The notes beneath the pieces were generated by a model. The model saw only the letters and a program-made list of their open reading frames with translations, did no database searches and was not told the origin of the DNA. This document shows, in pieces, positions 40,679 to 44,332 of a stretch of 47,937 nucleotides of DNA. Numbering within the stretch: the first letter of the stretch is position 1; the number at the start of each line of letters is the position of its first letter. Location: assembly GCA_003402745.1 (NCBI GenBank), contig QQND01000014.1, positions 1-47,937 on the forward strand, in the 5' to 3' direction. The stretch is from Verrucomicrobiota bacterium (GTDB lineage: Bacteria; Verrucomicrobiota; Verrucomicrobiia; Chthoniobacterales; Chthoniobacteraceae). Position numbers and translations under genes: made by a program.

Positions 40679-41341
40679 ATGATTGACTACATGCAAAAGG
40701 GAGGCCCCTTGATGTGGCTGCTTCTCTTTTGCAGCATTCTTGCCGGAGCGATTTTCCTCGAACGCGCCCTCTATTTTCACCGTGTCACCCTGCACTTGGG
40801 TGAATTTTTGCGCGGCCTCGCCGAGCTCATCCGCCACAAGCGATGGGCAGAGGCTCAATTGGAGTGTGCCGGCAATCCCATGCCCGTCACACGCGTCATG
40901 CATGCTGCGGTGCTCCGCCACAATGCCCCCCGAGCCGAACTCAAAGACATCGTGCAGGAAGCAGGCCAGTTGGAGTTGCCCAAACTCGAACGCCACCTTG
41001 GGATGCTCGCCGGCCTCGGCATGGTCGCGCCGCTGCTAGGGTTACTGGGAACCGTCACCGGCATGATCGAGGTCTTCAGCAACATCAGTGCCCAAAGCGG
41101 CCTCACCAGCTCCACGGACCTGGCAGGCGGCATCTACCAAAGCCTTCTCACCACCGCCGCAGGACTCATCGTCGCCATCCCCTGCGCTCTCGGCTACAGC
41201 TTTCTGTCCACGCGGGTCAACGACCTCATCCACGATATGGAGCGCGCCGGCATCGAAGTCGTCAATCTGATCACCGATCACCGCCACAACCCGACCATCG
41301 TTGAATTCGAGTCCGCCGAGGAAACCTCCCACCGCGGTTGA
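40679..41341 (+). CDS. exbB: MotA/TolQ/ExbB family proton channel protein
   Basis: 220 residues. Three membrane helices: 10-30 (PLMWLLLFCSILAGAIFLER, the ExbB start), about 107-130 (LGMVAPLLGLLGTVTGMIEV) and about 152-176 (LLTTAAGLIVAIPCALGYSF). The Thr in LGTVTGM and the TTAAGL region correspond to the polar residues that face the ExbD helix in the pore. Energises TonB by proton flow. Read with exbD, tonB and a zinc-ribbon gene in one operon. The 80-bp gap after the ABC transporter makes it a separate unit. Its stop overlaps the ExbD start (TTGA). Confidence 0.93.
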   Translation: MIDYMQKGGPLMWLLLFCSILAGAIFLERALYFHRVTLHLGEFLRGLAELIRHKRWAEAQLECAGNPMPVTRVMHAAVLRHNAPRAELKDIVQEAGQLELPKLERHLGMLAGLGMVAPLLGLLGTVTGMIEVFSNISAQSGLTSSTDLAGGIYQSLLTTAAGLIVAIPCALGYSFLSTRVNDLIHDMERAGIEVVNLITDHRHNPTIVEFESAEETSHRG

Positions 41342-41763
41342 CCGCCCTCCGCCCTGTGAAACTCCAGCGCTCCGTCCAGTTCCGTCCCGAGCTTTTCCAC
41401 GTTCTGCCAGTGGTTAATGTCTTGTTTCTGGCGCTATTGCTTTTCGCACTCAGTTCGCGCTTTACCCTGCAGCCCGGCCTCACCCTGAGCCTCCCCGCCT
41501 CCCCATTCACCCTCGCTCCCCAACGCAACCCGCTCGTCATTAGCATCACGGCCGCCCCGCTGCCTACCGTTTATCTGCGCGAGGAAAAAGTCACCCCCGA
41601 GGAGCTCGACCTTCTACTCCAGGACCGCCAACTCGCCGGACGCCCCGTCATCCTGCGCGCAGACCGTGAAACTCCTTACGAACGGATCGCTGAGATCAGC
41701 AATCTGGCCCTGCGTCGAGGCTTTGCGGTTGCACTCGCCTTCTCCGCCCCCACCAACCCCTGA
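41338..41763 (+). CDS. exbD: ExbD/TolR family protein with Asn in place of the pore Asp
   Basis: 141 residues from the TTG overlapping the exbB stop; a GTG at 41356 (MKLQRSVQFRPE) is an equally good start. One N-terminal helix reads FHVLPVVNVLFLALLLFALSS. In E. coli ExbD and TolR the matching segment is P.(I/L)D.(M/L)(L)V, where the Asp carries protons; here it is Asn. A periplasmic domain follows with the ITAAPLPTVYL and PVILRADRETPYERI beta-strand features of ExbD. Otherwise intact, so the protein is probably functional, but the Asp loss suggests altered or no proton coupling. Coupled to exbB and followed after 11 bp by tonB. Confidence 0.88.
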   Translation: MTALRPVKLQRSVQFRPELFHVLPVVNVLFLALLLFALSSRFTLQPGLTLSLPASPFTLAPQRNPLVISITAAPLPTVYLREEKVTPEELDLLLQDRQLAGRPVILRADRETPYERIAEISNLALRRGFAVALAFSAPTNP

Positions 41764-41774
41764 GGGCCACGCAG

Positions 41775-42497
41775 ATGCCCCAAAAAAGCGCTGCCTCCGC
41801 GGATCCCACCGCCCTCACCTTCCTTTGGCCTCACCAGGAAAAGTGGTATCACTCGCGCCTCTTGCGCTTCGTGCTAGTCTCCGTCCTAGGCCATTTGCTC
41901 GCCTTTATCCTCTTCCAAATTGTCAACCCGGAGACCGTCACAGCCCCTGGTCGGGAGCGGGAACTGCAGCTGCTCAGCAGCGATTTACCCGAGCACCAGG
42001 CACTCCTCCAAGCCGTCGAAGCGGAAGTGCCCCTAGCCGCCCTCGCCCACCAGTTGCTTTCCCCAGATGGCCTGCTACAGGGATCTTACCGCTCCGCCTT
42101 TCTGGAATCCCACGTCCCCCCCAAAGCCCCCCCGCGATGGAGCCCCACTCCCAAAAGTTTGGCGCCCGCCTTCCCTCAGCGCCCCCCCGCCGCAATCTCG
42201 CAGCCTGCTCCCGAACCGTACCCAGGCCTCCTTGTTTTGGAGCCGGATCTTGAGAAAAGGCTGGTCTCCAGGGCCGAAATTCCCTTCCCACCTCCGGGAA
42301 AGCTGCTCGAAAGCCCCCGCTTTCTGCTTGGAATCGCCGGTTCGGGCGAAGTTCAGTTCGTTTTCTTAGACAAAAGCAGCGGGGACGCCGATGCGGACGA
42401 CGCGGCCGAGCGCGCCCTGCGCCGATCCATCTTCACCGGCGGCACAACCGGGACTGCCTGGGGCCAGGCCACCCTGATTTGGAGAAGCGCCCCATGA
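41775..42497 (+). CDS. tonB: TonB-like energy transducer
   Basis: 240 residues. A cytoplasmic N-terminus leads to one membrane helix (about 31-50: RFVLVSVLGHLLAFILFQIV). It contains SVLGH, with Ser36 and His40 spaced as the essential Ser16/His20 of E. coli TonB. A Pro/Ala-rich periplasmic linker (about 110-165) is followed by a short C-terminal domain (GIAGSGEVQFVFLDKSSGDA, ending TAWGQATLIWRS), which has the beta-alpha-beta layout of TonB ends. No single conserved YP element is present, so TonB assignment rests on order, helix and fold. Its stop overlaps the zinc-ribbon gene by ATGA. Confidence 0.82.
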   Translation: MPQKSAASADPTALTFLWPHQEKWYHSRLLRFVLVSVLGHLLAFILFQIVNPETVTAPGRERELQLLSSDLPEHQALLQAVEAEVPLAALAHQLLSPDGLLQGSYRSAFLESHVPPKAPPRWSPTPKSLAPAFPQRPPAAISQPAPEPYPGLLVLEPDLEKRLVSRAEIPFPPPGKLLESPRFLLGIAGSGEVQFVFLDKSSGDADADDAAERALRRSIFTGGTTGTAWGQATLIWRSAP

Positions 42498-42712
42498 TCC
42501 GCGTCAGCATGACTTCCCTGGTTCTGGTGCTCGTATGCACTAGCGCCGGCCTGGTGATCCTCCTCTGGCTTTTGGGCGAGTGGCGCCGCTCCCGCAGGGA
42601 AGCCCGCCTGAGAAGTCGCTCAAGAAAATGCCCCCTCTGCTTTTTTGAATTTCTTCCCGCACCCGCCCCTCCCAGGGCGCCCTGCCCGCGCTGCGGTGCA
42701 CCCACAGAGTAA
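42494..42712 (+). CDS. Small membrane-anchored zinc-ribbon protein
   Basis: 72 residues from ATG at 42494, which overlaps the tonB stop as ATGA; a TTG at 42479 would add five residues. One N-terminal helix (7-28), a strongly basic stretch (RRSRREARLRSRSRK, 31-45) and a cytoplasmic zinc ribbon with CPLC (46-49) and CPRC (64-67) separated by a Pro/Ala-rich loop. I do not recognise a family. Coupling to tonB makes a link with the TonB/ExbB/ExbD complex likely, but no function can be given. Confidence 0.82.
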   Translation: MIRVSMTSLVLVLVCTSAGLVILLWLLGEWRRSRREARLRSRSRKCPLCFFEFLPAPAPPRAPCPRCGAPTE

Positions 42713-42760: not shown

Positions 42761-44332
42761 ATGAAACAGTCGTCCCAACAACGCGTTAAGGAGCACTACC
42801 AGACCCTTCGTAAACTCGGCCCCGAAGCGCTTTGGAACCTCGAAGTCCCTGCTTTCAACGCCGCCCCCCCCGAAGAACGAATTCAAAACGTCTCTGTAAT
42901 AAGAGCCGTGGGCGTCGTCTTTTCAGAGGCTGGTTCCTCTGCGCAAAAGGCCGCAGCGCTCGTCTGGCTGCGCGAACTCGTCCATGATCCGGAGGAAAAA
43001 GTGCGCCGTTATGCCATGGCCGCACTGCCCAAACTCGGTTCCGGGGAAGCCGAGGAAACCCAACTCCTCTCCCTTGCCTCCAAGTCCTCCGGCCCCAGGG
43101 AGACTCAGTTTCTAGCCAAAACCCTCGAACGCATCGGGGGCCGCGAAACCCTTAAAGTTGCCCACGCAGCCTCCCTGAGCCCGCTAGGTTTGGACGCCCA
43201 AAAACTCGAAGCCAACATCGCCCGACGCCAGGGAAAGGGGGGTATTTCCCTCAGCCAACCCCTCTCCCCATTCGAGGGCCTCCGCCTCAAACTCGAGTGC
43301 CGTACCGGTCTGGAACCGATCCTTCTGGAGGAACTCGCCCAGACCCACCGCCTCAAAAACCTCCTGCGCGTCGTCCATTCCAAACGAGGCGGGATCGAAC
43401 TGGCGCCCCAGCGACCCTTTTCTCTCCAAGAGCTCCACGTCTTGCGCTGCTTCAGCCACGGCCTCTTTGTGCTGGGAGAACTGCCCCCCCTCCCGCGCCA
43501 AGGCGCATCGCTCCCCTGCGAGGCCATCGCATCTCTCATCGCCTCCGAACTGGCGGCGCACATTTTTACCAGCCTTTCCGACGGTCCCATCCGCTACAGA
43601 CTGGAGTTTCCCTCGCGCAGAGCCGATGCAGCTTTGGTTGAAGAAATCACCAGTCGCGTCTTCAAACGCAAACCCTTTCTGCTCAATGATTCCAGGGAAG
43701 CCCCCTGGGAGGTTCAAATCCACGAGTCCTCCCAAGGCGTCTCCGTGGAGCTCCACCCCAAACTCCGCCCTGATCCCCGCTTCGCCTACAGGCGCGGCGA
43801 CGTCCCTGCCGCCTCTCACCCACCTCTAGCCGCGGCTCTCGCACGCATCGCCGGATTGGGCGCCTTTAAAGACGAACGCATCTGGGACCCTTTTTGCGGT
43901 TCAGGACTGGAACTGGCCGAGTCTATTCTCAGCGGTCACGTCTCAGAAGTTTTCGGCACCGACCTCAGCCCCGAAGCGATAGCCGTTTGCCGCGAAAACC
44001 TCCATTCCGTGCTCACCGGCGCCCCGGGAAAGCCGGGCCTGCACCTCAAGGACTGCGACTTCCGTGAAGGCCCAAAAATGGTGGGAGCGAAAGAACTCAC
44101 CCTGATGATCACCAACCCGCCTCTGGGAAAACGTGTCCCGGTGGCGGATCTGCGGGTTCTATTGGCGGGACTCTTCACGGTAGCAGAGCGGGTGCTGCGA
44201 CCGGGGGGACGTTTGGTTTTGGTAAACCCCTTGGATCGTCTTCCCCATGGAGGACGCCTCCGCCTGGCGTTACGGCAGCGCGTGGACGTCGGTTTTGCCC
44301 ACCTGCACGTCGAAAAATATATCTTGGATTAA
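42761..44332 (+). CDS. THUMP-type RNA methyltransferase with N-terminal helical-repeat region
   Basis: 523 residues. The first 160 residues are alpha-helical with a HEAT-like repeat (AALVWLRELVHDPEEKVRRYAMAALPKL), not found in ordinary RlmL or Trm14. The middle (about 173-345: LRLKLECRTGLEPILLEELA, then HSKRGGIELA) looks like a THUMP-related domain. The C-terminus is a Rossmann methyltransferase with DPFCGSG (376-382), GTDLSPEA and the catalytic NPPLGKR (452-458), the N-P-P-Y type motif of N2-guanine or N6-adenine enzymes, here with Leu at the last place. RNA is the likely substrate. It lies 48 bp after the zinc-ribbon gene. Confidence 0.82.
   Translation: MKQSSQQRVKEHYQTLRKLGPEALWNLEVPAFNAAPPEERIQNVSVIRAVGVVFSEAGSSAQKAAALVWLRELVHDPEEKVRRYAMAALPKLGSGEAEETQLLSLASKSSGPRETQFLAKTLERIGGRETLKVAHAASLSPLGLDAQKLEANIARRQGKGGISLSQPLSPFEGLRLKLECRTGLEPILLEELAQTHRLKNLLRVVHSKRGGIELAPQRPFSLQELHVLRCFSHGLFVLGELPPLPRQGASLPCEAIASLIASELAAHIFTSLSDGPIRYRLEFPSRRADAALVEEITSRVFKRKPFLLNDSREAPWEVQIHESSQGVSVELHPKLRPDPRFAYRRGDVPAASHPPLAAALARIAGLGAFKDERIWDPFCGSGLELAESILSGHVSEVFGTDLSPEAIAVCRENLHSVLTGAPGKPGLHLKDCDFREGPKMVGAKELTLMITNPPLGKRVPVADLRVLLAGLFTVAERVLRPGGRLVLVNPLDRLPHGGRLRLALRQRVDVGFAHLHVEKYILD

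Follow-up and report, generated by a model that had tools for sequence, protein, structure and literature searches.

The locus analyzed here raises the question of what an ExbD protein does when the aspartate that carries protons through its transmembrane helix is replaced by asparagine. This Asp has been called strictly conserved (PMC9008036). In the Ton complex, Asp25 of ExbD lies beside a ring formed by Thr148 and Thr181 of ExbB (PMC6778125), and the D25N variant of ExbD is listed as inactive and as failing to crosslink (PMC11658791), an inactivity that is known from E. coli only. We analyzed a 47,937-nucleotide stretch of DNA from a Verrucomicrobiota bacterium (hereafter the window) that carries an exbD gene whose predicted helix reads ELFHVLPVVNVLFLALLLFALSS, and asked if the Asn is genuine, if it is maintained, and what the complex that contains it might do.

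In alignments made with the family profile, the Asn of the LPVVNVLF segment fell on Asp25 of the solved E. coli ExbD (6tyi: INVTPFIDVML) and also on the Asp of 7ajq. An earlier note on this DNA, made from the sequence alone, had read the residue as a replacement of the ExbD Asp, and these alignments bear it out. The protein passed the curated cut-off of the ExbD family (43.4 versus 25.4 bits); it has Asn where the single transmembrane helix that characterizes an ExbD has its proton-carrying Asp, and we would not call it an energised ExbD because this defining carrier residue is absent. The window's genome assembly is fragmented and incomplete (2.79 Mb in 102 contigs, 69% complete), which leaves a sequencing or assembly error at the codon conceivable, and the earlier note had held that such an error would undo its observation. 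However, the Asn is identical in 36 genomes of the window's family, and Asn-type members occur on single-contig genomes as well (G249, G241 and G376). An error is thus effectively excluded.

The exbD gene belongs to a module of four closely spaced genes on the + strand, encoding ExbB, ExbD, a TonB-like protein and a membrane zinc-ribbon protein (Table 1). The open reading frame of exbD is listed from a TTG at 41338, overlapping the exbB stop codon; because its relatives begin with MKL or VKL, we took the GTG at 41356 as the start, which would likely make the Asn residue N21 of a 135-residue protein. The ATG of the zinc-ribbon gene overlaps the stop codon of the TonB-like gene (ATGA). This gene, which had been noticed earlier as part of the same operon, is a member of the module throughout the phylum. 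A gene for an RlmL/RlmK-like methyltransferase with a HEAT-like N-terminus adjoins the module in the window (42761-44332) and stands beside it in the window's genus only.

Table 1. Features of the module in the window, with the evidence for each.
Feature	Coordinates	Strand	Evidence
exbB, MotA/TolQ/ExbB family, 220 aa	40679..41341	+	PF01618, 106.8 bits; alignment to solved TolQ/ExbB; order-wide alignment
exbD, Asn at the site of the proton-carrying Asp	41356..41763	+	PF02472, 43.4 bits; aligned with Asp25 of 6tyi; AF2 match; dN/dS
AAT codon, Asn at the Asp25 position	41416..41418	+	Asn unchanged across the family, with at least 7 synonymous codon switches
TonB-like protein: TM helix with SVLGH (S-x3-H), proline-rich linker, TonB C-terminal fold	41775..42497	+	PF13103; AF2; Foldseek
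Small protein: one TM helix and CxxC...CPRCG zinc ribbon	42494..42712	+	Sequence; orthologues about +1200 from exbD across the phylum

Apart from the proton site and the Glu of the third transmembrane helix (TM3) of ExbB, the encoded machine looks intact. Consistent with its membership of the MotA/TolQ/ExbB family, the window ExbB keeps both lumen threonines (LLGTVTGM and SLLTTAAGL, equivalent to T148 and T181); it has Gln (GIYQSLL) where E. coli TolQ and ExbB have the TM3 Glu. Its top matches were to TolQ (90 bits), with solved TolQ chains heading the list. The AF2 model of ExbD (mean pLDDT 75.6) showed the ExbD periplasmic fold, matching 8vgd, 8p9r, 8pek and 5by4 in Foldseek with a probability of 1.00 and TM-scores of at most 0.82 by target length. 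The TonB-like protein has a transmembrane helix with the S-x3-H motif, and the SVLGH reported by the earlier note is indeed present, with the His at position 40. Its sequence matched PF13103 weakly (18.3 bits, below the cut-off of 22), but its C-terminal domain was modelled with pLDDT mostly above 90 and the best Foldseek matches of this domain were TonB C-terminal domains (e.g. 2gsk_B, probability 1.00, TM-score 0.74 by target length), so that the model points to a TonB C-terminal domain despite the weak sequence match. Against the NCBIfam equivalog models, the window ExbD scored well below the cut-offs both for ExbD (TIGR02803, 20.2 versus 152.95 bits; TIGR02804, 17.2 versus 123.45 bits) and for TolR (TIGR02801, 28.9 versus 127.3 bits), and ExbB scored far below those for ExbB and TolQ.

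Orthologues of exbD were present in 9 of 12 genomes of the window's genus, all of them with Asn. Across the family, 36 of 40 genomes, spread over nine genera, had an orthologue, and all 36, each read individually, carried Asn. On the family tree we counted at least 7 exchanges of AAC and AAT at the codon for this residue and 0 amino-acid changes, demonstrating that Asn is held in the family by selection and is not drifting. Its column is one of 13 among the 129 ExbD columns without any amino-acid change, the median column having undergone 6 changes. Furthermore, dN/dS against most relatives in the genus was 0.03-0.07 for exbD and 0.03-0.08 for exbB, and against the most distant relative in the genus it was 0.16 for both genes alike. 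Thus, the acid-less genes are under strong purifying selection in the window's genus, Asn itself is maintained by selection in the family, and the retention of Asn in place of drift indicates that the site still does something there. Two loci that by sequence belong to the window's genus (L066 and L068, 81-82% ExbD identity) stand in MAG records titled 'Opitutus sp. GAS368' and 'Akkermansia muciniphila'; these titles are probably wrong.

We traced the module through the order and the class and into further classes of Verrucomicrobiota, its genes keeping a constant spacing relative to exbD (exbB at about -680, the TonB-like gene at about +480 and the zinc-ribbon gene at about +1200), the TonB-like gene in the other classes often being too diverged for the profile used. 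In the order, 209 of 213 genomes matched the family ExbD profile, a count that includes paralogues. Since profile matches include these, residue counts were taken only from sequences read singly: in the families of the order, orthologues were those trailed by the TonB-like and zinc-ribbon genes, and the class-wide sample comprised 40 module loci. Housekeeping genes resembling guaB and fabF lie downstream of the module in many families and are absent from that place in the window's genus; a guaB-like gene within the fetched flanks of 50 loci, from many families, supports the orthology of the module. As a hint at what the module does, these conserved neighbours were rejected.

Among 150 module ExbDs, the Asp position was occupied by an acid in 60 (56 Asp and 4 Glu) and by a non-acidic residue in the other 90 (64 Asn, 8 Ser, 8 Thr, 6 Gly, 3 Gln and 1 Cys). 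Asp and Asn occurred together within single genera (f6g15, f11g35 and f11g42) and within the families f18, f25 and f37. A maximum-likelihood tree of ExbB plus ExbD, built with the key columns removed, required at least 15 changes between acid and non-acid and at least 27 residue changes, with 12 independent acid/non-acid pairs on well-supported (starred) branches. As a control, we read 46 paralogous ExbDs, taken from the window's genus and from elsewhere in the order, and all 46 had Asp. Judged from these sequences, the acid has been lost or changed many times within one orthologous group, whereas paralogues from the same order keep it. We infer that the direction was loss and not gain; the basis is the universal Asp of the paralogues and not a rooted tree. 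Relatives with Asp, which the earlier note would have counted against its own observation, do exist among distant members of the orthologous group, whereas the orthologues in the family all have Asn; the pattern is one of repeated loss or change and not of one odd gene, and the finding stands. In the whole of genus f8g18 (L098 and L177-L179; PLVEVV), Glu replaces Asp, so that a D-to-E variant of this site exists in nature.

We also examined the partner residues of the missing acid. In acid-less members, neither the helix of ExbD nor the lumen columns of ExbB had gained an acid. Compensation there by Cys, His, Tyr or Lys was likewise sought and rejected, and the columns flagged in the compensation scan (E83 of ExbD; Y7, K92 and E212 of ExbB) fall outside the helix and lumen. 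The Gln at the TM3 Glu of ExbB was rejected as a coupled change because it is not specific: Gln, Lys and Glu also accompany Asp-type members. At the ExbB position equivalent to Thr181, each of the 60 acid members had Thr or Ser, and 20 of 84 acid-less ones had Ala. Of the 12 independent pairs, an average of 4.6 showed loss of the hydroxyl together with loss of the acid, and none showed the reverse; however, a sign test on these few pairs gave a median p of 0.06, so the co-loss is not significant when relatedness is allowed for, and co-evolution of the ExbD acid and the ExbB Thr is suggestive only. The His of the TonB-like S-x3-H motif was conserved to at least 90% among 45 orthologues drawn from the whole order, and in the window's family this His is kept and both ExbB threonines are mostly kept.

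Some individual loci depart from these patterns. In genus f12g44 (L152, L156 and L158) the module has lost the ExbD acid, the Thr at the Thr181 position of ExbB and the TonB contact His together, and the four genes are kept, which would make it the most extreme uncoupled version seen. The TonB His is also missing from one long-branched, Asp-bearing member (L167, family f5). An Asn-type member (L101) reads LLGRVSGR in ExbB where others have LLGTVTG or similar, placing Arg at the Thr148 equivalent.

The window's genome, though 69% complete, encodes seven other ExbDs, all with Asp, so that the standard exbBD for which the earlier note proposed a search is found. It also encodes two plug-domain receptors and two other proteins with a TonB C-terminal domain, one of them just below the family cut-off. 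Together, these genes indicate that standard Ton machinery exists beside the module.

Many lineages of this orthologous and syntenic module can dispense with the acid, so proton-driven rotation is probably not what the module's task depends on today. The reading that we favor, and hold to be fairly probable, is that of a Ton-type complex uncoupled from proton flow and acting as an envelope scaffold or tether. The four-gene, phylum-wide module would be derived from a proton-driven Ton/Tol motor. The Asn-type complex would still assemble, with an ExbB pentamer around two ExbD helices and the TonB-like protein as its arm, but would no longer cycle protons; it would serve as a static or passively moving link from the inner membrane to the periplasm or outer membrane, with the zinc-ribbon protein as a putative partner on the cytoplasmic side. 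The D22N variant of MotB mimics the protonated state with little structural change (PMC9389320), and in the window's family Asn may similarly hold the axle as a permanently protonated Asp would, joined by hydrogen bonds to the threonine ring of ExbB. The acid-keeping members, the roughly 40% with Asp or Glu, may still have an energised role. Against uncoupling, components of the energised machine, namely the ExbB threonines and the TonB His, persist in the window's family. The earlier note had offered a non-energised variant and a distinct transduction module as possible readings; the comparative evidence favors both, with non-conduction remaining a deduction from that comparison. A wider version of the idea, for which we see the chances as evenly balanced, is a phylum-wide 'pseudo-motor': a 5:2 rotary complex that was uncoupled many times from the proton motive force and re-used, with its zinc-ribbon partner, as a passive trans-envelope scaffold or signalling unit, Asn having been selected in some lineages as a mimic of protonated Asp. 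Such a complex would resemble pseudokinases, which keep their fold without catalysis.

Other explanations retain a working motor. The complex could be energised by another route: some other residue in ExbB or in ExbD or a bound water chain might serve, the ion might be a different one, or a neutral polar side chain might let protons through inefficiently. The retention of the TonB His and ExbB threonines in the window's family fits this explanation, as does a polar residue (Asn, Ser, Thr or Gln) at the site in most members. However, acid-less members gain no acid at any helix or lumen column, Gly too occurs at the Asp site, the ExbB threonine hydroxyl is lost in acid-less members only, and ExbD(D25N) is inactive in E. 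coli (PMC11658791). We therefore regard an alternative route as unlikely, and the earlier note's suggestion that another residue or ion is used found no counterpart in the alignments, where neither ExbD nor ExbB has a conserved acid that takes over from the Asp, and where Ser, Thr, Gly, Gln and Cys also occur in its place. Alternatively, an Asn-type ExbD and an Asp-type ExbD from another locus might share one 5:2 complex, in which just one of the two chains carries protons. The genome encodes seven Asp-type ExbDs that could take part, and solved structures place the two ExbD chains in non-equivalent positions (PMC6778125). Mixed complexes are nonetheless very unlikely, given that every module has its own adjoining exbB, and that the Asp-type paralogues sit with exbB genes of their own and are distant in sequence (about 30% identical).

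The carrier might also be restored by post-translational deamidation of Asn to Asp, in keeping with Asn being by far the commonest replacement (64 of the 90 non-acid members). But a D-to-N replacement also takes only the simplest single-base transition, other residues (Ser, Thr, Gly, Gln and Cys) are found at the site as well, and the Asn lies in a buried helix and is followed by Val, not by the Gly that favors deamidation; this explanation is scarcely credible. A different possibility is that the module is under relaxed selection, degenerating and on its way out. The Asp position does drift freely in some families (Cys, Gly or Ser in f9g23; Ser or Gly in f12), and the module is apparently missing from several lineages of the class, in which the best scores drop to paralogue level. 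Degeneration is nevertheless highly improbable in view of the low dN/dS of both exbD and exbB (about 0.03-0.08 in most comparisons within the window's genus), the invariance of Asn in the family despite synonymous codon switches, the continued association of the four genes across the phylum, and the lack of internal stops in the orthologues listed for the family and the order.

The module can be set beside several known systems. With the E. coli ExbB-ExbD-TonB system the module shares its gene types, the order of ExbB then ExbD, PF01618 and PF02472, the ExbD periplasmic fold, the TonB C-terminal fold, the S-x3-H motif and the polar threonines of ExbB; unlike that system, it is without the proton-carrying Asp, has Gln for the TM3 Glu of ExbB, scores far under the ExbD and ExbB equivalog cut-offs, and has fixed TonB-like and membrane zinc-ribbon genes in its operon. 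The module's ExbB scores best against TolQ and its ExbD also scores against TolR of the TolQ-TolR-TolA (Tol-Pal) system, but both lie under the respective equivalog cut-offs, the Asp is absent, and there is no Pal or TolB among the operon genes. Verrucomicrobia and others also have vWA force transducers (PMC12204202), with which the module shares TolQ/TolR-like genes, a non-standard transducer and the phylum; however, the proton-binding Asp is still present in the one of their families that has a TolR-like helix, and the module is without a vWA protein. SjdR of Anabaena, formerly TonB1, was reported to shape the septum and not to transport siderophores (PMC8262864). It offers a likeness in the non-transport envelope role of a TonB-annotated protein, but it is cyanobacterial and short, its periplasmic domain is not TonB-like, and no Asp-less ExbD is described with it.

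The Myxococcus Agl-Glt gliding machinery (AglRQS, MglA and GltJ) shares TolQR-like motor genes with the module, and GltJ has a TonB-like domain (PMC8262864); according to PMC9389320, AglQ and AglS have the Asp, whereas the window ExbD has Asn. A gene for an MglA/Arf-like small GTPase, which recalls this machinery, lies just upstream of the module in f8, f9 and f35g129, and one for a large protein with a C-terminus that looks roadblock-like by eye lies just upstream in f8, f9, f10, f12g44 and f1g5; these genes are about 0.7-3.2 kb from exbD (L096, L098, L099, L100 and relatives). Both genes are absent from the window's locus, and the MglA-like GTPase had no match in the window's genome as assembled (69% complete). 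A link to MglA and gliding was therefore rejected, as the GTPase and roadblock-like genes adjoin the module in some families only and the window's genome has no match.

In the open-access literature, to which our search was confined, we found no published report of an ExbD without the Asp. The Asp of ExbD, TolR and MotB is described as strictly conserved and essential, and the module is a natural series that breaks this rule: the same syntenic complex carries Asp, Glu, Asn, Gln, Ser, Thr, Gly or Cys, with contrasting pairs even within genera. These natural variants are ready comparisons for what proton flow does in Ton/Tol motors and for which parts work without it, and they mark out an uncharacterised four-gene envelope module that is common in Verrucomicrobiota. 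The repeated loss of the acid, while the other genes stay together under selection, suggests that what was once a proton motor has here become a passive component of the envelope.
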